Positions 92 to 30,021 of a DNA stretch of 34,193 bases are shown here, piece after piece. The stretch's first letter is position 1. Every line of letters begins with the position of its first letter. The translations under genes and the position numbers were made by a program. Origin of the DNA: a virus. The notes below the pieces were generated by a model. It was not told the origin of the DNA and did no database searches. It saw only the letters and a program-made list of their open reading frames with translations. The stretch lies in the IMG/VR virus record IMGVR_UViG_3300032116_000744, positions 1 to 34,193 of that record. One strand, written 5' to 3'.

Positions 92-115
92 AATGTCAGT
101 GCACTATGTTATACT
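92..115 (+). promoter_or_regulatory. Left-arm promoter P1 (TGTCAG-box type)
   Basis: AATGTCAGTGC (92-102), seven bases, then TATACT (110-115). The same arrangement occurs before 1373 and 3338. The predicted start near 122 gives a 23-nt leader with the RBS GAAAGGA before ATG 145. The box sits about 7 nt closer to the -10 than a normal -35. Confidence 0.65.
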
Positions 116-144
116 TTGACAAAACTAGCAATGAAAGGAAAATC

Positions 145-1155
145 ATGGCTCATAACCTTGAAACAAATGGCAACGATGTTGCTTTTGCTTTGCGTGGAAC
201 TCCTGCATGGCATAATCTCGCTAATCGAATCTTCTCACAAGATGAAGAAGTTAGCACACAACTAATGCTCGATGAAGCGAAACTCTCTAATTGGGATGTT
301 CGTTTATCTCCTGCTACAGACCACATTCCTAGCGATTGGAATGATACATCAGACGCACAATTCGTTATCCGTACAAATCCATTTAATAGTGGAACGGATG
401 TTTTGGCTACTGTAGGCTCACGCTATAAAGTTATTCAGAATGAAGATTTATTCTCATTCGCTGATAATTTACTAGATGGCGATACCCGTTGCTCTTGGGA
501 ATCTGCTGGCTCTTTGAAAAAGGGTAAAGTAGTATTTGGCTCTCTTACTGTTCCCCGTGAAATGGTACTAGACCCACAAGGCGCTAACGATACAACTAAA
601 TTGTATCTTATCGTATGGACATCACACGATGGCTCTGTTGCTGTTCAAGCAGCAATTACACCTGTTCGTGTTGTTTGCCAAAATACTTTGAATCTTGCAA
701 TGCGTAATGCTAAGCAATCATTCAAGATTCGTCACACACAATCTGCTGAAGGCAGAATTCAAGTTGCTCGTGAAACTCTTGGATTAACTTTCGGATACTT
801 TGATGAATTCGAAAAGCAAGCACAAGAATTGTTTGCACAATCAGTTACTGATAAGCAATTCTCAGACTTGATTCGCACAATCTATCCTAAGCCTGAATTG
901 GATAAAAATGGCTCAATCAAAAAGTGGGAAAGCAAGGTTGTTTTAATTGACGACCTTTATCATAACTCACCAACTAACGCTAACATCAAGGGTACCGCTT
1001 GGGGTGCTTTCAATGCTCTAACTGAGCGCCTTGATTATTATCGTACTGCTCGCAAGGGTAATAGCGAATCTCTAATGGCTTCTGCTTCTGGATTCGACCC
1101 TGTAATTACCGCTGAGAAAAATAAAATTCTCAAAATGGTAAAAGCCCTAGCGTAA
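145..1155 (+). CDS. DUF932 / phage-plasmid-like protein (TIGR03299 type)
   Basis: A 336-residue protein of the DUF932 family, common in phages and plasmids and of unknown biochemical role. Family features include the early RGTPAWHNLA segment, a central stretch resembling VGSRYKVIQNEDLFSF, and the VRVVCQNTLNLA block before the C-terminal half. ATG 145 is chosen because GAAAGGA lies just upstream and because the earlier in-frame ATG at 106 falls inside the promoter. It is the first gene of the rightward arm. A 6-bp hairpin (1166-1188) follows the stop, and then a tRNA. The family is assigned with good confidence, the function is unknown. Confidence 0.85.
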   Translation: MAHNLETNGNDVAFALRGTPAWHNLANRIFSQDEEVSTQLMLDEAKLSNWDVRLSPATDHIPSDWNDTSDAQFVIRTNPFNSGTDVLATVGSRYKVIQNEDLFSFADNLLDGDTRCSWESAGSLKKGKVVFGSLTVPREMVLDPQGANDTTKLYLIVWTSHDGSVAVQAAITPVRVVCQNTLNLAMRNAKQSFKIRHTQSAEGRIQVARETLGLTFGYFDEFEKQAQELFAQSVTDKQFSDLIRTIYPKPELDKNGSIKKWESKVVLIDDLYHNSPTNANIKGTAWGAFNALTERLDYYRTARKGNSESLMASASGFDPVITAEKNKILKMVKALA

Positions 1156-1194
1156 TAAATTTTCCTGAGCATGAAATAAAACTGCTCACCATTA

Positions 1195-1268
1195 GGTCCA
1201 TTAGCTCAGTTGGTTAGAGCGCTACCCTGTCACGGTAGAGGCCGTCGGTTCAAGTCCGATATGGATCG
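1195..1268 (+). tRNA. tRNA-Asp (anticodon GTC)
   Basis: A 74-nt cloverleaf is readable: acceptor GGTCCAT/ATGGATC with one G-T wobble, D stem GCTC/GAGC, anticodon stem CTACC/GGTAG with loop CTGTCAC, T stem GTCGG/CCGAT with loop TTCAAGT, and discriminator G. CCA is not encoded. The anticodon GTC reads GAC and GAT. It is probably co-transcribed with the DUF932 gene and released by processing at the flanking hairpins. Confidence 0.93.
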
Positions 1269-1271
1269 CAG

Positions 1272-1301
1272 GCTGCGCCCAACAGTAAAGGCCAGCTTTT
1301 T
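1272..1301 (+). terminator. Rho-independent terminator after tRNA-Asp
   Basis: GCTG-C-GCC (1272-1279) pairs with GGCCAGC (1290-1296), leaving one bulged C and a 10-nt loop. Five T follow. It closes the transcript of the DUF932 gene and tRNA before the next promoter at 1342. Confidence 0.65.
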
Positions 1302-1341
1302 GTGTTACGGGTCACATAAAAAAGTTCCCGAAATGCTTGTA

Positions 1342-1365
1342 AATGTCAGTGCACACATGTATAAT
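1342..1365 (+). promoter_or_regulatory. Left-arm promoter P2 (TGTCAG-box type)
   Basis: AATGTCAGTGC (1342-1352), seven bases, TATAAT (1360-1365). The expected start at about 1372-1373 coincides with ATG 1373, so the first message would be leaderless. Confidence 0.68.
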
Positions 1366-1372
1366 TCTCACC

Positions 1373-2026
1373 ATGTTCAAATCATATTGGTATGTATGCA
1401 CAAACTGCGATGCGTCGATTGAGGTTGTGTCTAAGGGAATTCATTTCCAAGACCCAGCATGTAATTGCCATGACTCACAGGTTGTGTGGTGTCAGACCAA
1501 TGTGGTAGAATCATCCACTACAAACGAAAGGAATACAATGTTAGATAATCTAGAGGCTTCAATGGACGGGATGACTACAGAAAATCTTCCCCTCTCTGAT
1601 GCAGAAAAATATAACCCTAATCTATTGGTAACCTATAAAGTTATCCATGGATATTCAGATGCAGAATATGTAACAGACAAAGTTACAAGCATCGAATACG
1701 AACTACACAATGGTCGTCAAAACTCTAAAGTTGTAGTACAGTACAAGAATAAGGTTGATGTAGTTAAAGATATTATTACTGAAGCATATGCTGATTCAGA
1801 TGACCAAGATACTCTACGTGCAATCGCCGAGGCTCTTGATATTGAATTAACTAAAACAGTTGAATTCACTGCTACAATCGAAGTTGCTGGAACAATGGAG
1901 ATTGATTTGCTTTCTGATTACGGTGACAACCTTGAAGACGAAGTTACAGATAATCTTTATGTCGATTCACAAAGTGGTCGCATTGAAATTACTGAGACTG
2001 AAATCTCATACGTTAGGGAATGCTAA
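1373..2026 (+). CDS. Zinc-ribbon protein fused in frame to a second phage protein; two possible starts
   Basis: From ATG 1373 the frame gives 217 residues. Residues 1-55 form a zinc ribbon (CTNC, then CNC, then another Cys) and residues 56-217 are an acidic domain I do not recognise. An internal in-frame ATG at 1538 has a strong RBS (AACGAAAGGA, 1524-1533) and its own promoter-like TGTCAG/TAGAAT element (1490-1511), so a 162-residue short form starting MLDNLEAS is likely made as well or instead. ATG 1373 has no RBS but lies at the expected transcription start of P2. No stop separates the two parts. The long frame could be a real fusion or two nested products. The next gene overlaps the stop (TAATG). 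Confidence 0.7.
   Translation: MFKSYWYVCTNCDASIEVVSKGIHFQDPACNCHDSQVVWCQTNVVESSTTNERNTMLDNLEASMDGMTTENLPLSDAEKYNPNLLVTYKVIHGYSDAEYVTDKVTSIEYELHNGRQNSKVVVQYKNKVDVVKDIITEAYADSDDQDTLRAIAEALDIELTKTVEFTATIEVAGTMEIDLLSDYGDNLEDEVTDNLYVDSQSGRIEITETEISYVREC
1490..1511 (+). promoter_or_regulatory. Internal promoter candidate (TGTCAG-box type)
   Basis: TGTCAG (1490-1495), ten bases, TAGAAT (1506-1511), with the same spacing as P1-P3. It lies inside the zinc-ribbon part of the preceding gene and would give a 20-nt leader containing GAAAGGA before ATG 1538. Confidence 0.5.
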
Positions 2027-2238
2027 TGTATTTTGAGTTGACTGCTCCTGATAGGCTATCAATGGAGATGGCTTATTGGGATGCACAAACAATGGGACTT
2101 GACCCTGAAGCAATGTCACCGTTGACTTTCAATGTTGGAACTGGTAGTATTGAGAAAGTAAGTCGTATTCGTGACAAACATAATCTTGTAGAAAGTTATG
2201 TTTCAGAATATGAACCAACAGGATACGTAAGGAGATAA
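2026..2238 (+). CDS. Small conserved actinophage protein
   Basis: A 70-residue protein starting MYFELTAPDRLSMEMAYWDA. I recognise the pattern as a recurrent small actinobacteriophage protein with no known function. ATG 2026 overlaps the previous stop (TAATG) and has AGGGA seven bases upstream. An alternative ATG at 2020 adds two residues but is worse placed. The middle is basic and helix-rich (KVSRIRDK). Confidence 0.75.
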   Translation: MYFELTAPDRLSMEMAYWDAQTMGLDPEAMSPLTFNVGTGSIEKVSRIRDKHNLVESYVSEYEPTGYVRR

Positions 2239-2239
2239 G

Positions 2240-2386
2240 ATGTCAGATTACAAGGATGGGTTTCAAGACGGATACAAGTTTGCCCGTGAAGAAATTATGG
2301 AGAAACTTGCAGAGATTGATATCGCTGACATCGATTCTTGGATCTTAGATCGTCTATCTGAAATGATTGAAGGTGGGAAACTATGA
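2240..2386 (+). CDS. Small acidic phage protein
   Basis: A 48-residue protein starting MSDYKDGFQDGYKFAREE, predicted mostly helical, with no Cys and no membrane segment. GGAGA precedes the ATG and the stop overlaps the next start (ATGA), so it is translated within the 2026-2983 run. Function unknown. Confidence 0.65.
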   Translation: MSDYKDGFQDGYKFAREEIMEKLAEIDIADIDSWILDRLSEMIEGGKL

Positions 2387-2574
2387 CAGAATGGATTAAG
2401 TGTGATACTTGTTCAGCTCAGGCTAAGTTTCTTGCCCGCTCCACAAACGGGGAATTAACGTTCTGTGGCCACCACTATAACGAAAAGTCAGAGGCTCTTG
2501 ACAAATGGGCCTATGAAGTTATAGAATTAGACAAAAAGGAAGAATCACCACAACTACTAGAAACGGCGGAATAA
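2383..2574 (+). CDS. DUF7455-like zinc-ribbon protein
   Basis: A 63-residue protein with CDTC near residue 8 and CGHHY near residue 28, the CxxC...CGHH pattern typical of actinobacterial DUF7455 proteins, which are thought to bind one zinc ion. The C-terminal half is acidic and helical. It overlaps the preceding stop by ATGA and is followed one base later by the next start. Role unknown. Confidence 0.72.
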   Translation: MTEWIKCDTCSAQAKFLARSTNGELTFCGHHYNEKSEALDKWAYEVIELDKKEESPQLLETAE

Positions 2575-2575
2575 A

Positions 2576-2983
2576 ATGGGAGATAGAGCAAACTTTGGCT
2601 TTGTACAGCCAAACGGAAATACAATTGTACTATACGGGCACTGGGCTGGACATCAAATGCTAGGTAGACTAGCGGACGCTGTCATTGCTGCACGTCCACG
2701 TTGGAATGATTCATCATATGCAACACGTATCGCAACTAGTCATCTAGTTGGAAACCAATGGTCTAGCGAAACTGGATGGGGCCTCTATGTAAATGAGATT
2801 GGTGACAATGAGCACAAGATTGCTATTGTTGATTTCTCGCAACAAACATTTAGTCTTCACGAAGAAGCGCCACATTCAGACCAAGATAACAAAGTACGTG
2901 GAATGAATAATGATGCAATCTTCACCATGGACCTAAGTTCATTCTGTGAGAAGTATGCATTAGAAGAAATTCTAGTTGTCTGA
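2576..2983 (+). CDS. Conserved actinophage protein (MGDRANFGF type)
   Basis: A 135-residue protein beginning MGDRANFGFVQPNGNTIVLYG. It contains an ETGWGLYVNEIGDNEHK block and ends FTMDLSSFCEKY. Proteins with this start recur in actinobacteriophages and related plasmids, and none that I know of has a defined activity. The repeated Trp/Tyr/Gly segments suggest a compact beta-rich fold. It is the last gene of the first left-arm cluster, with the non-coding RNA candidate just after it. Confidence 0.8.
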   Translation: MGDRANFGFVQPNGNTIVLYGHWAGHQMLGRLADAVIAARPRWNDSSYATRIATSHLVGNQWSSETGWGLYVNEIGDNEHKIAIVDFSQQTFSLHEEAPHSDQDNKVRGMNNDAIFTMDLSSFCEKYALEEILVV

Positions 2984-2985
2984 GA

Positions 2986-3156
2986 TATGATATAATTAGA
3001 GTGGGCCAGGGGCCTATTCTATAAGTCAGGGTGCGGCTATTAGGGAGTTCCCCAAGTCGTTAAATAAGGCAGTTACTTAATTCCTTTCGTTGTCTAGCAG
3101 CCTTGACTTCATATCTTTAAAAATTAATCCTCAGCGAAAGCTGGGGATCTTTATTT
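2986..3156 (+). ncRNA. Structured small RNA candidate with anti-Shine-Dalgarno-like segment
   Basis: A TATAAT-like -10 lies just after the 2983 stop (about 2989-2994) and a strong terminator ends at 3156, bracketing roughly 155 nt with no ORF. Inside, AAGTCA (3023-3028) can pair with TGACTT (3104-3109) to close a domain. TTAAATAA/TTACTTAA (3060-3080) forms an internal hairpin with one mismatch. The stretch after it (about 3081-3092) reads TTCCTTTCGTTG, complementary to the CAACGAAAGGA-type ribosome sites of this arm. No known RNA family is recognised. Function is inference. Confidence 0.5.
3127..3156 (+). terminator. Strong Rho-independent terminator
   Basis: A 9-bp stem (3127-3135 with 3140-3148, one G-T pair) capped by a GAAA tetraloop and followed by CTTTATTT. 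Confidence 0.8.
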
Positions 3157-3255
3157 GCCCGCAGCTGTGAGGGTATCATATCATGTTTACGGAAGTCAAT
3201 ATAAATTTCCTGAAATCCTAGCATATAAGACAAATAGATCTAATAGAGTAAATGT

Positions 3256-3270
3256 GGTGTGAAACACACC
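3256..3270. repeat. Short inverted repeat upstream of P3
   Basis: GGTGTG-AAA-CACACC, perfect 6-bp arms, 15 bases before the TGTCAG box of P3. It could be a repressor or activator site or a small hairpin. The rest of 3157-3285 shows no gene. Confidence 0.4.
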
Positions 3271-3285
3271 CATATCCTATATACA

Positions 3286-3309
3286 AATGTCAGTGCTCCA
3301 TTATATAAT
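3286..3309 (+). promoter_or_regulatory. Left-arm promoter P3 (TGTCAG-box type)
   Basis: AATGTCAGTGC (3286-3296), seven bases, TATAAT (3304-3309). The 11-base box is identical to those of P1 and P2. The predicted leader of about 22 nt carries AACGAAAGGA before ATG 3338. Confidence 0.7.
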
Positions 3310-3337
3310 TAGGTCATATCAACGAAAGGATATGAAT

Positions 3338-4111
3338 ATGCCAAATTGGGTGTATAACACATTAACGATACAAGGTCCAAAGGCTGAAATTGATTCTATT
3401 AAGGATAGACTTAATAAGCCGTTTACTTTAGCAATAGAGACACATGGTATGGGTGATATTAATCCTAATGGATTCCCCACCAAATTTAAAGAGGTTACTT
3501 ATTCTAACCCTGTCTTTGCTTTCTTTAATATCCACTCATATAAGGATGAGGGAATTACTGATGAGGAATATGCACAACAGCCTGACCGTGGTGGCATAAA
3601 TCTAGATGACCCTGATTGGTTTGCTAAGTCTGTTGAGTTTGCTAAAACTCAGAAGGATTGGTATTCATGGAATAATTCTAATTGGGGAACCAAATGGGAT
3701 GTTGCTGTATCAGATGATGACAAGTATCCTGAAACAGAATTACTTGAATATAAATCAGACGGTGATGATAACTGGCTTGTATATAAATATGAGACTGCAT
3801 GGTCACCTGCTGTAACTATTCTAACTAAACTATCTAACTTAGTTCCTAACTCTTTACTCACATTAGAGTATGAAGAAGAAACAGGCTGGGGTGGGGAATA
3901 TGAGATTGTGCGTGGTGAAGTAAAGGAGATTCTTTCATATGAGAATCGTTGCTATGCATGTCAGTCTTTTGACACATTAGATTATTGTGAGGATGACTGT
4001 GGAGAATTCTGTTCTAACTGCCACCAAGGTTCTTGGCAAGACCAAGAGGCAATGGCAAAATGTCAGACCCATATGGTATTCTTACCTTCTACAGAAAAGG
4101 CGGAAGTATGA
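3338..4111 (+). CDS. Api92/YubB-like ferredoxin-fold protein with C-terminal zinc cluster
   Basis: A 257-residue protein. The N-terminus (MPNWVYNTLTIQG, then PFTL) matches the DUF1281/Api92-like proteins found on plasmids and phages, whose N-terminal domain has a ferredoxin-like fold and no known activity. Residues of about 215-250 are Cys-rich (CYAC, CEDDC, CSNC), suggesting a two-zinc cluster not usual for the family. ATG 3338 is preferred over ATG 3332 because it sits 7 bases after GAAAGGA and gives the typical MPNW start. The stop overlaps the next ATG (ATGA). Confidence 0.75.
   Translation: MPNWVYNTLTIQGPKAEIDSIKDRLNKPFTLAIETHGMGDINPNGFPTKFKEVTYSNPVFAFFNIHSYKDEGITDEEYAQQPDRGGINLDDPDWFAKSVEFAKTQKDWYSWNNSNWGTKWDVAVSDDDKYPETELLEYKSDGDDNWLVYKYETAWSPAVTILTKLSNLVPNSLLTLEYEEETGWGGEYEIVRGEVKEILSYENRCYACQSFDTLDYCEDDCGEFCSNCHQGSWQDQEAMAKCQTHMVFLPSTEKAEV
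4061..4082 (+). promoter_or_regulatory. Weak TGTCAG-box promoter candidate
   Basis: TGTCAG (4061-4066), ten bases, TATTCT (4077-4082), inside the end of the preceding gene and 25 bases before ATG 4108. The spacing matches P1-P3 but the -10 is poor. Confidence 0.3.
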
Positions 4112-4338
4112 GTTTCTTAGAGAATGAAAACCAAATGGTTATAGACGCTATCTATTCTGAGATAGGCGAACAACTTGTTGAAGATTGGACTAATTCCAAT
4201 TTAGATGAGGGTCAAATGTATGCAGATTGGTGCTTTGCCGATATGTCAGGAGATAATTATATTAAGGGTAGATTTAATCTATTCTATGATTTGAAACCCG
4301 AAGACCAATACTACATTGAATGGAATGAGGAGAAATAA
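4108..4338 (+). CDS. Small acidic hypothetical protein
   Basis: A 76-residue protein starting MSFLENENQM, strongly acidic and aromatic-rich. The start is placed at ATG 4108 because it has GGCGGAAG upstream and an ATGA overlap with the previous stop. A longer reading from 4033 would run far into the upstream gene. The stop shares a base with the next ATG (TAATG). Not recognised. Confidence 0.65.
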   Translation: MSFLENENQMVIDAIYSEIGEQLVEDWTNSNLDEGQMYADWCFADMSGDNYIKGRFNLFYDLKPEDQYYIEWNEEK

Positions 4339-4511
4339 TGTTAGGTTATACATATAAGGAGATACAGGAGTTTGGTATACCTTTAACTGCCGCTATTGAA
4401 TTATATTCAGAACTTAAATTAGATTCTGATGTCCAAGCTGGTTTACTAAAAGTATGGGACTTCTTTGAAGGTCTATTAGCGGAAGGATATGTCCAAGGTG
4501 AATCATACTAG
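4338..4511 (+). CDS. Small hypothetical protein
   Basis: A 57-residue protein starting MLGYTYKEIQEFGIPLTAA, predicted helical and acidic. It is translationally coupled to the gene before (TAATG) and overlaps the next by about 20 bases. Not recognised. Confidence 0.55.
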   Translation: MLGYTYKEIQEFGIPLTAAIELYSELKLDSDVQAGLLKVWDFFEGLLAEGYVQGESY

Positions 4512-4677
4512 TCTGATCGAATATATGAATATTCATTTAATTAGTCTTAAGCAGGACCAAGATGATGTATCTAATGTTGAGGATTATCAGCATTTATATC
4601 TAGCTGGACAAATTAAGGCAACCAGGCATTTATTGTCAGTGGCTAATGATATACTCTCTAATGGAAAGGAATACTAA
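4489..4677 (+). CDS. Small hypothetical helical protein
   Basis: A 62-residue protein ending DILSNGKEY. GGAAGG lies just before ATG 4489. GTG 4498, nine bases in, is also possible and would be better spaced from that RBS. It overlaps the end of the previous gene in another frame, and its stop shares a base with ATG 4677. Not recognised. Confidence 0.5.
   Translation: MSKVNHTSLIEYMNIHLISLKQDQDDVSNVEDYQHLYLAGQIKATRHLLSVANDILSNGKEY
4634..4655 (+). promoter_or_regulatory. Left-arm promoter P5 (TGTCAG-box type)
   Basis: TGTCAGTGG (4634-4642), seven bases, TATACT (4650-4655). Eight of nine box bases match P1-P3 and the spacing is the same. The predicted start near 4662 leaves a short leader with GGAAAGGA before ATG 4677. 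Confidence 0.58.
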
Positions 4678-4955
4678 TGAGAGATATTCATACTGAGTTC
4701 CACCCCCGTCTTCAAAAACTTGTGGACCTTGGGGAATCAGGAACAGACATTCTGCACGGTGAACTAAAGAACCTTTTGCTGGAGGCTGAGAACCAATTGA
4801 TTCTTGCACAGGCGCAGGAGGAAGAAACGGAAGAAGCCATGGACAGTATGGAACGAACATACTGGGAGGGCCAAATGGACGCATTGACAGAAGTCTATGC
4901 TCTAACGTATAATTTAGCATTCGCTATAAATGAAAGGAGCAAGGCTAATGGATGA
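4677..4955 (+). CDS. Conserved small phage protein, helical
   Basis: A 92-residue protein, acidic and almost wholly helical, ending in a block (EGQMDALTEVYALTYNLAFA) of a kind common in actinophage accessory genes. The ATG follows GGAAAGGAATACTA. It overlaps the next gene by 8 bases. Function unknown. Confidence 0.65.
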   Translation: MRDIHTEFHPRLQKLVDLGESGTDILHGELKNLLLEAENQLILAQAQEEETEEAMDSMERTYWEGQMDALTEVYALTYNLAFAINERSKANG

Positions 4956-7181: not shown

Positions 7182-7598
7182 TTACCATAGTTCTTCTAAT
7201 GTATATTCTAGTTGACTAGGAATATGTCCAGAACTTTCTTCTACGAATCCATTCTCTCTATCAAATAACATGTAATCTAATTTAACTACATCAAATGATT
7301 TCTTAAATATCGACATTACCTTATCTAGATCTAATTGGCCACATGTGTATAGATCGAATTGTACCAATCCTGGATCTACTTCATCCCAGATATGGAAGGC
7401 TATATGGCTTGTCTCTATCATTACAATAGCTGTAAGACCCTTGTTTCCGTCCTTGTCTACATAGCTGGCAAATGGACCTTTAATGATCTTCATATCGATC
7501 TGGTTTACTAAATCCTTGAGAAACTCTATACCCTGTTCTTCTGTGTTCATAGGGTTATTTACTTTGGCATTTACTAATAGGTGCTTATGAAATAGCAT
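7182..7598 (-). CDS. speD: S-adenosylmethionine decarboxylase-like pyruvoyl enzyme (SpeD family)
   Basis: A 138-residue proenzyme of the prokaryotic AdoMetDC family. The segment IETSHIAFHIWDE (residues of about 61-73) aligns with the self-cleavage site of SpeD, where the Ser before His becomes the pyruvoyl group. The second conserved block, FDLYTCG, carries the catalytic Cys. Family members make decarboxylated SAM for spermidine synthesis, but some homologues decarboxylate ornithine or arginine instead. The Glu before the Ser is shifted (ETS instead of ES), so the substrate is open. The start at 7598 is chosen for its RBS GGAGGAAG. An upstream ATG at 7622 adds eight residues. Confidence 0.78.
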   Translation of the reverse strand: MLFHKHLLVNAKVNNPMNTEEQGIEFLKDLVNQIDMKIIKGPFASYVDKDGNKGLTAIVMIETSHIAFHIWDEVDPGLVQFDLYTCGQLDLDKVMSIFKKSFDVVKLDYMLFDRENGFVEESSGHIPSQLEYTLEELW

Positions 7599-7848
7599 TT
7601 TCTTCCTCCGAATCAAATTCATTTATTGTTTCAAATGCTGACCGTGTTGGTACATCATTGAATATATATCTATTGCTGGTTTCATCATACTTCCACCATC
7701 TCCACCCGTCCTGATCCTGCCAGAATTTAGCCCCAGGAGTTTCATCCTGAATGCCTGCGTCTAACGCATCATAGAAACGAACTTCATTAAATATGGCTTC
7801 TCTTAGAGCAGACCATCTAAATATAAGACTAACTATCTTGTCTATCAT
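7585..7848 (-). CDS. Hypothetical protein between SpeD-like and cobalamin genes
   Basis: An 87-residue protein, Trp-rich in the middle (FWQDQDGWRWWKYDE) and acidic at the end. AAGGGAAG precedes the ATG. It overlaps the upstream gene by 20 bases and the SpeD start by 14, so it is probably translationally coupled to both. Not recognised. Confidence 0.62.
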   Translation of the reverse strand: MIDKIVSLIFRWSALREAIFNEVRFYDALDAGIQDETPGAKFWQDQDGWRWWKYDETSNRYIFNDVPTRSAFETINEFDSEEENAIS

Positions 7849-8371
7849 TTTCTTCCCTTCGTTGAACCCACAATTTTTCTTTATCCTTATTGTGGTATCT
7901 GGCCATTACAAATAATAAGTCAGACAGTCTATTTAAATACTTTGGGATGTTCTTGCTTATTTGAACATCATTTTCATTATGAATTGCAATTGCCATCCAG
8001 ACAGCTCTTTCTGCCCTTCTAACTACGGTTCTAGCATTATGTAGAGATCCAGTAGGTAAGACAAATGACCGTAGTGGCTCTAGAAATTCATTGTAATCGT
8101 CAATTACCTTCTCCAGATATTCTATTCTGTCATCTGTTATTTTGAATTTATCAGATCCAGCAAGCTCTGCCCCTAGATCAAATAGGTCGTTCTGTATTCT
8201 TTCGATAATGTCATTGTAGTATTCAACAGACATTCCAATAGCAGAATTGGCCTCATCTACTGCACCTATAGCCTCTATTAATGGAGATATCTTATAGACT
8301 CTCTCATTATTGGCAATTCCTGTGGTTCCGTCGTCACCTGTTTTAGTATAAATACGAGTTAAGTGGACCAT
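7829..8371 (-). CDS. Cob(I)alamin adenosyltransferase, PduO type
   Basis: A 180-residue protein, full family length, that transfers adenosyl from ATP to cob(I)alamin to make coenzyme B12. All landmark motifs are present: RIYTKTGDDGTTG at residues 6-18 (ATP binding), KISPLIEAIGAVDEANS, FVLPTGS, the basic ARTVVRRAERA helix and YLNRLSDLLFVMARY near the end. PduO enzymes are trimeric five-helix bundles in the cytoplasm. In this phage operon it could keep a B12-dependent enzyme such as class II ribonucleotide reductase supplied (inference, no such gene in the window). The start overlaps the upstream stop (TAATG). Confidence 0.93.
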   Translation of the reverse strand: MVHLTRIYTKTGDDGTTGIANNERVYKISPLIEAIGAVDEANSAIGMSVEYYNDIIERIQNDLFDLGAELAGSDKFKITDDRIEYLEKVIDDYNEFLEPLRSFVLPTGSLHNARTVVRRAERAVWMAIAIHNENDVQISKNIPKYLNRLSDLLFVMARYHNKDKEKLWVQRREENDRQDS

Positions 8372-10937: not shown

Positions 10938-11110
10938 TACTTGTCCATCCTTATCCATTTTCCATATTTAGTAACTACGTTAGAGCCCATGTACTCTTGA
11001 CCAGTTTCTAAATCTATAAGCTTCCATTTACCTGGAGCTTTAGTTTTAATTTCTAACTTTACTGGAAACTGAAACTCTTCAACTTCCGATCCATCTAATA
11101 ACTTTCTCAT
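10937..11110 (-). CDS. Small hypothetical protein
   Basis: A 57-residue protein starting MRKLLDGSEVEEFQFPVKLEI, likely a small beta fold (KWKLIDLETGQEYMG). It overlaps the proteasome-like gene upstream by ATGA and the next gene by TAATG. Not recognised. Confidence 0.6.
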   Translation of the reverse strand: MRKLLDGSEVEEFQFPVKLEIKTKAPGKWKLIDLETGQEYMGSNVVTKYGKWIRMDK

Positions 11111-11640
11111 CCTATTTCAACTTGTATCGGTTCACTTGTATGTATATCAAATATAGATGCTGTTGCTATTGCCTCTATTACAACTTGTTCTGCCTCTTCT
11201 ATACTATCCCAAGGCTGTCCAGCCATATAACCTAAAGCTAAATCTTTACCACTCCCAGCTGCATACATATTGTACTGAGATCTGCTTATTGACATATCGG
11301 AACCAATGTCAAACAGTTGTGACTTTACAGAAACTAAAAAGTTAAATTCAGACTCTTTATCTTTCCAGTCATATCCAAACTTATCAAATGCCTCTATCAT
11401 AGAAGGAATCATTTTGGCTACAACCCATTTTTGTGGATCTCCAACAATTTTTGGCGGAACCCAGTTATATGCAATAATATCTCCAGGCCTTGCGTCTCCA
11501 CGTAAACCAATTAGGATGTCTTTAATCTTAATTATTTTTGGGGTATCTGGACTAATTATCTTAGAGTTCTCATCTGTAATTTGGCTATCTGCAGCCATGA
11601 CAGTCCAACCGTCACCTTGAATTCCCACAATGGTTGTCAA
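11107..11640 (-). CDS. Proteasome-fold Ntn hydrolase (HslV-like), copy 1
   Basis: A 177-residue protein with the start of HslV or a proteasome beta subunit: Met-Thr-Thr-Ile-Val. Removal of Met would expose Thr2 as nucleophile. Asp18 (MAADSQ) matches the conserved Asp17 and Lys35 the conserved Lys33 of proteasomes. The AAGSGKDLALGYMAG block (about residues 126-140) matches the late SGS..A.G motif. No propeptide. The start codon is TTG. A partner ATPase is not in the window. It could be a self-compartmentalised protease or a related hydrolase. First gene of the 11640-6929 operon, behind a strong promoter. Confidence 0.8.
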   Translation of the reverse strand: MTTIVGIQGDGWTVMAADSQITDENSKIISPDTPKIIKIKDILIGLRGDARPGDIIAYNWVPPKIVGDPQKWVVAKMIPSMIEAFDKFGYDWKDKESEFNFLVSVKSQLFDIGSDMSISRSQYNMYAAGSGKDLALGYMAGQPWDSIEEAEQVVIEAIATASIFDIHTSEPIQVEIG

Positions 11641-14738: not shown

Positions 14739-15031
14739 TGGCTTATTCTTTCAACAAGTTTATGCTTCGGCATTGCGCCGATTACTCTTTGAACTTCTAC
14801 GCTATTTTTAATAACCAATACTGTTGGTATTCCACTTACGCTAAATCTTTCTGCTGATTTTGGATTAGCGTCTGAGTCAATTTTAAATATTGGTAATCCA
14901 TTTCCTTCTTTTAATTCTGAGATGATGGGAGAAAACATTTTGCATGGTCCACACCATTCAGCCCAGAAATAAAGAAACAATAGGTCGTTGTTATCTATTG
15001 CTTCCTGAAGATTGTCATCAGTTAATATCAT
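14729..15031 (-). CDS. Thioredoxin
   Basis: A 100-residue protein with the active site WCGPCK (about residues 27-32), the buried Asp replaced by position-equivalent acidic residues earlier (TDDN, AIDNND), and the cis-Pro segment SGIPTVL at about 73. It reduces disulfides in the cytoplasm. Phages use thioredoxins for ribonucleotide reductase or as polymerase clamps. The start overlaps the glycosylase stop by ATGA. Confidence 0.92.
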   Translation of the reverse strand: MILTDDNLQEAIDNNDLLFLYFWAEWCGPCKMFSPIISELKEGNGLPIFKIDSDANPKSAERFSVSGIPTVLVIKNSVEVQRVIGAMPKHKLVERISQWI

Positions 15032-15498
15032 GAACTCACCTTATGAGTTGGCCAATAGTAACTGCATGACTCGCAACAAGTATACCCTAGATCACGATAG
15101 TCTGCAAAATCTTGGTAGAACCAGTAATGTTCTGGATCTTTTTCAAACAGTCTACCTTTGTGTGTGTAATGTAGCTTTTCTTTTCCTAGCCACCAAGGCT
15201 TATCTGTAGATATGCCTAGAAAATTGTCTTCATACACACGATCAAACTCTGATGAAGTATTGTCTTTATATCCTCGCAAAAATACTTCTTTTAGTATTGC
15301 TTCATTGTATAGAAACAACCAGTCTTCATGGCCTCTCCACATTTTAACTGCTGGATGATTAGACCATGCACCGCTACTATAAAGTCCTGCTAGAGACTTT
15401 AGAATTTGTAGGTTTTCTATACGTTGTTTCATTAAACGTTTACGGTCTAGATGCTTTGCTGTTTGAGCAAAATCTGCATCTGGTAGGAATGTTTGCAT
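15028..15498 (-). CDS. Endonuclease V-like pyrimidine dimer DNA glycosylase family protein
   Basis: A 156-residue protein starting MQTFLPDADFAQTAKHLDRKRLMKQ, followed by WSNHPAVKMWRGHEDWL. This pattern defines the bacterial and phage family annotated as related to T4 pyrimidine dimer DNA glycosylase. The activity of most members is untested. ATG 15498 is used because it matches family starts and lies seven bases after a TAGAAT, giving a leaderless message. The upstream reading from 15534 overlaps that promoter. A C-terminal Cys cluster (CCESC) is unusual. Confidence 0.8.
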   Translation of the reverse strand: MQTFLPDADFAQTAKHLDRKRLMKQRIENLQILKSLAGLYSSGAWSNHPAVKMWRGHEDWLFLYNEAILKEVFLRGYKDNTSSEFDRVYEDNFLGISTDKPWWLGKEKLHYTHKGRLFEKDPEHYWFYQDFADYRDLGYTCCESCSYYWPTHKVSS

Positions 15499-15505
15499 GA
15501 TACCT

Positions 15506-15534
15506 ATTCTACTAAATAAGTGTGGGATAGTCAA
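15506..15534 (-). promoter_or_regulatory. Promoter for a leaderless gene (15498)
   Basis: TTGACT (15534-15529), 17 bases, TAGAAT (15511-15506), seven bases, ATG. The stretch CTTATTTAGTAGAAT is shared with the promoter at 16732-16760. Confidence 0.75.
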
Positions 15535-18527: not shown

Positions 18528-18843
18528 GGCTAGGTTGTCCTTCCAGTTCGCATCTTACTCCATATGACTCTATTAGTTTCTTTATTTTTGATACGTAGTC
18601 GATAACCATTTCTTTTTTTATACCATCGTACATTACAAAATTGTCTTCATATAATCTTATTGCTAAAAAATCTGGATATTGAACAATATCCATGAGTAAA
18701 TCTGCTACTGGCTTTTTTATTTCTCTTACCTTTAGTGCCATTTCTTTTGTATAGAATACTGGCTTGTTTGGTTCTCCAGTCCATTGGTTAATTCCATATT
18801 TAAAATGTTCTGCCTGCTTTTCTGCGGTCTTATCAATAAACAT
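18514..18843 (-). CDS. Hypothetical phage protein
   Basis: A 109-residue protein with mixed charge, two helices around FLAIRLYEDNFVMYDG, ending GVRCELEGQPSRGIL. It overlaps the WhiB gene by 11 bases. Not recognised beyond a general likeness to actinophage accessory proteins. Confidence 0.65.
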   Translation of the reverse strand: MFIDKTAEKQAEHFKYGINQWTGEPNKPVFYTKEMALKVREIKKPVADLLMDIVQYPDFLAIRLYEDNFVMYDGIKKEMVIDYVSKIKKLIESYGVRCELEGQPSRGIL

Positions 18844-19144
18844 TTTTCTTTTTTAACCTCTTCCATACTTCAGGAGTTTTGTGTAAGTTTCTTGTTTTAT
18901 CAATAGATCCTGCATTTAAATAAACTCCGCCCCAGACTCCATATTCACTGTTGTCAACTCCAGATCTAAAACAAATATCTATTACTGGACAAGCTAAGCA
19001 AGCCTCGTCAATACTTTTTGCAATGTTGATATCCATTTCATATTTGTCATAGAATAGGTTTGTATCCATTCCATTACATACTGATAGATGCCACCAGTCA
19101 AATTCTTCTGCGTCTACGCCTAAACTATTTAAAATATCTGACAT
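18833..19144 (-). CDS. WhiB-family Fe-S transcription regulator
   Basis: A 103-residue protein. Four Cys (23, 49, 52, 58) in the C...CxxCPVxxxC pattern bind a [4Fe-4S] cluster. The Wbl turn motif GVWGG follows at 69-73, and the basic end (KTPEVWKRLKKKN) would bind DNA. Wbl proteins act with the primary sigma factor and are restricted to actinobacteria and their phages, which supports the host assignment. Phage versions can block host WhiB function, for example in mycobacteriophage TM4. It might also help select this phage's own promoters. Confidence 0.92.
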   Translation of the reverse strand: MSDILNSLGVDAEEFDWWHLSVCNGMDTNLFYDKYEMDINIAKSIDEACLACPVIDICFRSGVDNSEYGVWGGVYLNAGSIDKTRNLHKTPEVWKRLKKKNVY

Positions 19145-29129: not shown

Positions 29130-29878
29130 TATATTCTCCTAAGCAAAACGTTGACGACGTCATGCTGTTTTATTCTTTCAAATGTGGCCGCTTCCCCATT
29201 TAAAAATTCCATAGTATATTTATCGTTTAATTCTACCAAAAATTCATCTGGCTGTCCACTGCCTAATTCAACAACAATTAATGGACAATCCTTTGCCATT
29301 TGAGAGAACCCATCAAATACGAATCTTTCGTGACCCTCTACATCTATTTTCATAAAATCAACTTTACCAGAATATACAGAGTCCAATCTTTTTGCCTGTA
29401 TTTCTTCTGTATAAAAATTACCATGCTGACCATCGTTACCTATTCTATGCTCACCAACTATACCAGATCCGCCAATATTTTCTTCCCAGATATTTAATAT
29501 TAAATTGTCTTCCTTATCTGATAAAGCGAATGGCATAACTTCTATCTGACCAGCATTGTTATATTCATTTAAAGTTCTAGCGTACTCATATGACCTGCAT
29601 AGTCTTTTTATTGGCTCAAACGATATTACGCTTCCATTATTTCCGACTAACCTTGCCATCACTTCTGTAAAGTAAAATAAATTGGCTCCAATATCTAAGC
29701 ATGTCCATCCTGGTTGTATATTTTTAATCATCCACTCAGTTAATTCTTTATCCCAAACTCCATGGTCCTTACAGCTTTTTTGAACATAACGATCTGTTTT
29801 ATCTCCAGTATAAACATAAAAGGAATCTAATACTTTAGTAAAACTAATAGACTCTATATTTTTTGGTTCAAGTTTCAT
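29129..29878 (-). CDS. FkbM-family SAM methyltransferase
   Basis: A 249-residue protein. The SAM-binding loop is CLDIGANLFYFTEVMARLVG (about residues 61-80), then SFEPIKR, and the FkbM hallmark FMKIDVEGHERFVFDG (about 177). FkbM enzymes usually O-methylate sugars or small molecules. In phages they often belong to glycan or surface modification sets. No glycosyltransferase is nearby. Overlaps the HTH gene by ATGA. Confidence 0.85.
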   Translation of the reverse strand: MKLEPKNIESISFTKVLDSFYVYTGDKTDRYVQKSCKDHGVWDKELTEWMIKNIQPGWTCLDIGANLFYFTEVMARLVGNNGSVISFEPIKRLCRSYEYARTLNEYNNAGQIEVMPFALSDKEDNLILNIWEENIGGSGIVGEHRIGNDGQHGNFYTEEIQAKRLDSVYSGKVDFMKIDVEGHERFVFDGFSQMAKDCPLIVVELGSGQPDEFLVELNDKYTMEFLNGEAATFERIKQHDVVNVLLRRI

Positions 29879-30021
29879 CTTTTTTTAATTAGTCCAAACT
29901 GCTCTAGATATCTCTGTATAGTCATTGCAGAAACATTACATTCTTTTGCTATCTCTGTTACTGTTTTCTTTTGGACCACATATCTTCTATGCAACCAATC
30001 TTTGCTTTGATATAATTTCAT
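29875..30021 (-). CDS. Small helix-turn-helix protein
   Basis: A 48-residue protein: a basic start (MKLYQSKDWLHRRYVVQKK), then TVTEIAKECNVSAMTIQRYLEQFG, a resolvase/invertase-type HTH. It may be a regulator or a DNA-binding helper of the resolvase. It is coupled by ATGA at both ends. Confidence 0.72.
   Translation of the reverse strand: MKLYQSKDWLHRRYVVQKKTVTEIAKECNVSAMTIQRYLEQFGLIKKR

Follow-up and report, generated by a model that had tools for sequence, protein, structure and literature searches.

The left arm of a virus genome, IMG/VR record IMGVR_UViG_3300032116_000744 (34.2 kb; positions 1 to 34,193, the whole stretch analysed and called the window below), carries a series of rightward promoter-like sites in which a TGTCAG box precedes a -10 hexamer at a fixed distance. 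With a probability of roughly 0.78, these sites are PafBC-dependent promoters of the RecA-NDp type that are used by an actinophage, with the PafBC of the host as activator. Judged from its sequence, the promoter type is already known: it is the RecA-NDp promoter through which PafBC switches on DNA-damage genes in actinobacteria. What seems new is that one entire arm of a phage genome should depend on it; a literature search, with most subscription journals outside its coverage, returned no report of phages using PafBC or RecA-NDp promoters.

The LexA/RecA-independent promoter P1 of recA has the consensus tTGTCRgtg-8 nt-TAnnnT, and its induction needs PafBC (PMC5656591). The PafBC motif has been given as TGTCGG-10xN-TA-3xN-T, with TGTCAG and TGTCAC as variants in M. 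tuberculosis (PMC8151990). The phage box agrees with the TGTCR requirement of PafBC promoters, including the choice of G or A at base 5, and the fixed 10 bp from TGTCRG to TAnnnT is found both in the phages and at actinobacterial recA promoters. Because the box, the spacing, the A/G degeneracy and the rare TGTCAC all match the published motif, we assign the phage promoter to the PafBC type. Further points of likeness to the PafBC promoters of Mycobacterium and other actinobacteria are the position of TGTCR at about -26, the GTG or ACC extension and the frequent leaderless starts. The original prediction had presented these sites as a new promoter class. This description has to be given up, as they match a described promoter and identical sequences stand in front of repair genes in actinobacterial genomes. 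There are differences from the bacterial promoters too: the phage sites drive an arm of small unassigned genes and not repair genes, their -10 is nearer to TATAAT, the base before TGTC is mostly A, and about one fifth of them have a -35 element as well.

The G+C content of the window is 36.7%. Its rightward arm of small genes occupies the left 6 kb or so, and the remainder is almost all leftward. All six sites of the original prediction are present, and exactly 10 bases separate TGTCAG from the -10 hexamer in each:

94-115, + strand: putative PafBC-type promoter 1, box 94-99, TGTCAGTGC-N7-TATACT (110-115), 5′ of the DUF932 gene 145-1155
1344-1365, + strand: putative PafBC-type promoter 2, box 1344-1349, TGTCAGTGC-N7-TATAAT (1360-1365)
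1490-1511, + strand: putative PafBC-type promoter 3, box 1490-1495, TGTCAGACC sub-form-N7-TAGAAT (1506-1511), within gene 1373-2026
3288-3309, + strand: putative PafBC-type promoter 4, box 3288-3293, TGTCAGTGC-N7-TATAAT (3304-3309), 5′ of gene 3332-4111
4061-4082, + strand: putative PafBC-type promoter 5, box 4061-4066, TGTCAGACCC sub-form-N6-TATTCT (4077-4082), 5′ of the ATG at 4108
4634-4655, + strand: putative PafBC-type promoter 6, box 4634-4639, TGTCAGTGG-N7-TATACT (4650-4655), 5′ of gene 4677-4955

The 11-mer AATGTCAGTGC, noted earlier at three of the sites, has exactly three copies in the window, all on the + strand. The left 5.5 kb holds five sites whose -10 deviates at no more than one position; over 1000 dinucleotide shuffles the mean is 0.014, and no shuffle has more than 1. 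The leftward strand of the window has no TGTCAG-N10-(TATAAT-like) site, which agrees with the earlier claim that the box is absent from the -10 elements of the leftward arm, and one further + strand match (26062) is antisense within a leftward gene. A loose motif allowing 3 mismatches is not enriched in the window (78 vs 63); therefore the signal is the exact box together with its spacing. Downstream of promoter 2, the ATG at 1373 sits 7 nt past the -10 without a Shine-Dalgarno sequence, the layout of a leaderless start, and gene 1373-2026 is probably transcribed from this promoter as a leaderless mRNA. The upstream region to which promoter 1 belongs is conserved among relatives. Promoter 5 overlaps the 3′ end of the preceding gene (3332-4111) and has the weaker -10; it is probably real, because TGTCAGACCCATAAGATATACT occurs in the comparable block of relatives.

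The same pattern is abundant in related phages, represented by 57 IMG/VR loci. These were found with the product of the first gene, the DUF932 protein, and oriented by that gene. In these relatives, TGTCRG-N10-TATAAT occurs 670 times on the strand of the DUF932 gene and almost never on the opposite strand. For TGTCAG-N10-(TATAAT, at most one mismatch), the counts are 397 on the + strand and 1 on the - strand, and other spacings give 0-27. The earlier picture of a promoter class that is confined to one arm, fixed in its spacing and provided with a box near -28 to -23 stands. The box itself has to be widened. TGTCAG is one form of it (397 at N10) and not the sole one, since TGTCGG is found 273 times; TGTCAC is mildly raised (9), the backgrounds for the three being 5.8, 2.6 and 1.1, respectively, and the remaining single-base variants reach 0-13. 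Thus the box is better written TGTCRG. When every possible hexamer was scanned for at every spacing, without prior bias, TGTCGG and TGTCAG at N10, plus their shifted versions, ranked top. The base preceding TGTC is A in 68%, T in 28% and G in 3%, and the consensus is [A/T]TGTCRGTGG-N7-TATAAT. Two sub-forms, TGTCRGTG and TGTCRGACC, can be distinguished, the latter with 109 sites in the relatives and with the window examples 1490 and 4061.

Sites are present in 57/57 relatives (median 12 per locus). A gene start, taken to be an initiation codon that has a ribosome-binding site or else a leaderless ATG opening at least 40 codons, lies downstream of 636 of 665 sites (96%), compared with 17% for other TATAAT-like hexamers of the same strand. 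The enrichment in related phages that had been proposed as a check is therefore clear. The three large contigs (86-120 kb) have 16-20 sites per genome, on a single strand and nearly all within one block of about 10 kb. Box and spacing are retained in 331 non-redundant sites (less than 80% identical over 60 nt). In the whole of IMG/VR, ATGTCRGTGG-N7-TATAAT is found in at least 120 stretches; with one base more, the count is 23.

Actinobacterial genomes give a further view of the motif. As many as 40 copies of TTGTCRGTG-N8-TANNNT are found in one large genome, against 0 for a reversed-pattern control, and the first examples of this motif precede genes for RecA, UvrC, SbcD, uracil-DNA glycosylase, a UvrD-like helicase and 13E12 (DUF222/HNH-like) proteins; these and the following gene names were read from translated open frames, with no family search. 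TGTCRGACCC-N6-TANNNT, corresponding to the second phage sub-form, is also enriched over its control and precedes genes for SbcD (four times), RecA, RadA, a RarA-like AAA protein, ThyX and 13E12. Upstream of recA, TGTCR-N11-TAnnnT was found in 11 loci and other spacings in 0-2. Of 17 genomes in which the helix-turn-helix (HTH) domain of PafC is a strong match, 9 have this recA motif, vs none of the 11 that lack the domain (p=0.004); among those with weak or fused PafC matches, 2 of 23 have it. HTH_PafC matches were also seen in frames of 700-800 codons (G053, G128, G193, G182, G268 and others), which suggests PafB-PafC fusions; most recA genes of these genomes have no TGTCR-N11-TAnnnT. The full phage-like promoter exists in one Mycobacterium and one Rhodococcoides genome, upstream of leaderless 13E12 genes whose ATG lies 7 nt past the -10, the same layout as at window site 1344 with the ATG at 1373. 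Searches with an exact TATAAT were less informative. Over all bacterial genomes, such matches are mostly due to chance in AT-rich genomes, and a leaderless 13E12 gene stood at 2 of the 3 actinobacterial matches inspected. TGTCRGTG-N8-TATAAT was found in only 7 of 396 Actinomycetota genomes, at one 13E12 gene and otherwise at chance-like places, and TGTCAGACCC-N6-TATAAT in two low-GC genomes was discarded, as it lies within the coding gene of a PdxS-like protein.

Several observations link the phage to actinobacteria. The relatives of its DUF932 and RecA proteins are actinophages, the closest being Streptomyces phages of the Stanwilliamsviridae. In a sample made up of Actinomycetota only, the nearest proteins to the phage cobalamin adenosyltransferase are those of actinomycetes (55%). 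A search of bacterial genome contigs with the DUF932 protein gave no host or provirus match. HTH_PafC is above cut-off in 158 of 246 Actinomycetota and is absent from some small low-GC genomes. The WYL domain (PF13280) was found in none of 36 phage records, some of them partial, whereas the control genomes were positive, and a phage-encoded WYL/PafBC regulator was rejected on this basis. With no such gene in these records, the PafBC of the host is the likely activator. The original prediction of a new arm-specific sigma factor or activator is thus probably wrong: no sigma factor of its own need be assumed for the arm.

Three points weigh against a role of host PafBC. Its presence in the host is presumed, and several small low-GC actinobacteria in the sample have no HTH_PafC. 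About 21% of the sites carry a near-consensus -35 element, which is unexpected if the box simply replaces it. Finally, the box is not general to the phage group, as the cultured Streptomyces relatives Evy and Mandalore are without it: Evy has no match and in Mandalore the box is not enriched. The last point indicates that the trait belongs to one clade, presumably aquatic, a label that we take from the IMG sample numbers. Evy and Mandalore are related Stanwilliamsviridae, and in Evy the DUF932 gene belongs to a block of small genes, comparable to the present one, at an end of the genome. The upstream regions of this block resemble, by eye, ordinary -35/TAGACT promoters in place of the -26 box. 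The promoter type thus appears to have switched between related phages.

The alternative that deserves most attention, although it is improbable, is a phage-encoded, MotA-like activator that binds TGTCRG at -26, so that the likeness to PafBC promoters would be mimicry or convergence. Candidates exist: a 48-aa HTH protein with a weak likeness to sigma region 4, found in 7 of 21 records searched, and a WhiB-like protein that both the window and the large relative G001 encode. The WhiB-like protein could take up sigma region 4 in the manner of AsiA, and arm-specific use would suit a phage switch. Such a phage protein would not have to copy every feature of the host promoters, yet the box, the spacing, the R degeneracy, the rare TGTCAC and both 3′ extensions all match the DNA-damage promoters of the host, and no WYL protein was found in the 36 records. 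In T4, middle promoters combine a MotA box with sigma appropriation by AsiA. The analogy drawn with them earlier is apt as to mechanism, for PafBC too adapts the sigma factor from a -26 element, and in both an activator-bound box between -35 and -10 stands in for the -35 in one temporal or arm class. It does not extend to the activator, which in the present phages is most likely a damage regulator of the host. The spacing is another one, too, and TGTCRG is unlike the MotA box; partial Pfam scans covered 88 proteins of G001, with no search aimed at MotA or AsiA.

The -35 elements raise the question of whether these are plain sigma-A promoters, active through -35/-10 or an extended -10, with TGTCRG as the site of another protein such as a repressor. 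A TTGACA-like hexamer (at most one mismatch) lies 17-18 bp from the -10 in 68 of the 331 non-redundant sites, and G often precedes the last spacer base. However, 263 of the 331 sites (79%) have no such -35, and the fixed 10-bp phase to the -10 with single-strand placement favours a promoter element over an operator, which makes this explanation very unlikely. The statement that the box replaces the -35 accordingly holds for some 80% of the sites and not for the rest, nor for window site 94, which also has a -35-like TAGACA (87-92, N17 to the -10). In about one fifth of the + strand sites of the relatives, often at the DUF932 gene, the -35-like hexamer abuts the -26 box in composite promoters, often TAGACAAATGTCRG. 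Less probable still is another host regulator, WhiA (GACAC) or ClgR. TGTC is the reverse complement of GACA, and ClgR was once reported to bind the mycobacterial P1 motif, but induction of P1 is blocked without PafBC (both discussed in PMC5656591). WhiA was rejected: it needs GTGTC on the site strand, yet G precedes TGTC in only 3%. There is hardly any room left for chance repeats, or for a few duplicated promoters that share ancestry and have no function. Orthologous sites are indeed common to related contigs, but box and spacing persist across the non-redundant sites, and the spacing lock, the box specificity, the gene-start placement and the shuffles refute this explanation.

The other features mentioned above, and some neighbouring ones, are as follows:

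145-1155, + strand: 336-aa DUF932 protein (Pfam PF06067, E=7e-56), whose gene is the first in the rightward arm
1373-2026, + strand: 217-aa protein with an N-terminal Cys-rich segment, function not assigned (weak Pfam matches only)
3332-4111, + strand: 259-aa protein with a DUF1281_C / Api92-like domain (PF18406, E=1.9e-6)
7829-8371, - strand: cobalamin adenosyltransferase (auxiliary-type)
7182-7622, - strand: S-adenosylmethionine decarboxylase (auxiliary-type)
15028-15534, - strand: pyrimidine-dimer glycosylase (auxiliary-type)
18833-19144, - strand: WhiB-like protein with the Cys pattern and a GVWGG motif
29875-30021, - strand: conserved HTH protein of 48 aa (MKLYQSKDWLHRRYVVQKKTVTEIAKECNVSAMTIQRYLEQFGLIKKR), whose likeness to sigma-70 region 4 is weak and below cut-off

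The 48-aa protein was the sole yield of the search for sigma region 4, and the WhiB-like protein of G001 is a PF02467 match. Promoter 3 would give gene 1373-2026 a second in-frame product, 55 residues shorter, from the ATG at 1538 (CGAAAGGAATACAATG). The window also encodes the single-stranded DNA (ssDNA)-handling proteins RecA, a RuvC-like protein and a PD-(D/E)XK protein; in G001, SSB, DnaB and primase domains are found. The pafBC genes of mycobacteria adjoin those of the Pup-proteasome. In the window, frame 11107-11640 (- strand) has an N-terminal match of 49 residues to a proteasome subunit (PF00227, E=4.8e-9).

PafBC is a WYL-domain activator of actinobacteria that is switched on by ssDNA and slots between the promoter DNA and the housekeeping sigma factor, at region 4 of the latter (mode of action: PMC10936776). 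PafB reads the -26 element (TGTCR) and RNA polymerase the -10, so that a good -35 is not needed. With this element placed 10-17 times across the rightward arm of small, mostly unassigned genes, the arm may be transcribed by the sigma A form of the host RNA polymerase together with the PafBC of the host. The trigger may be ssDNA that arises during infection, from phage replication or breakdown of host DNA, which would imply early-to-middle timing of the arm. Sites with an extra -35 may keep a basal, PafBC-independent sigma-A activity. In short, the DNA-damage alarm of the host probably turns on the arm genes of the phage. The chances are about even that this lytic phage family uses PafBC as an infection timer by which a dozen -26 promoters turn on one arm at the same time, with the composite -35/-26 subset giving basal early expression. 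If so, this would be a T4-middle-like switch built upon a host stress regulator.

In practical terms, TGTCRG-N10-TATAAT on one strand is a cheap marker for an arm of unassigned genes in abundant aquatic viruses, and the hundreds of natural promoter variants could be used to study sigma adaptation. PafBC promoters are otherwise known as a bacterial repair circuit. If the present reading is true, the virus reads the damage alarm of its host as its own on-signal, and one could then ask directly at which times, and for what reason, phages respond to ssDNA stress in their actinobacterial hosts.

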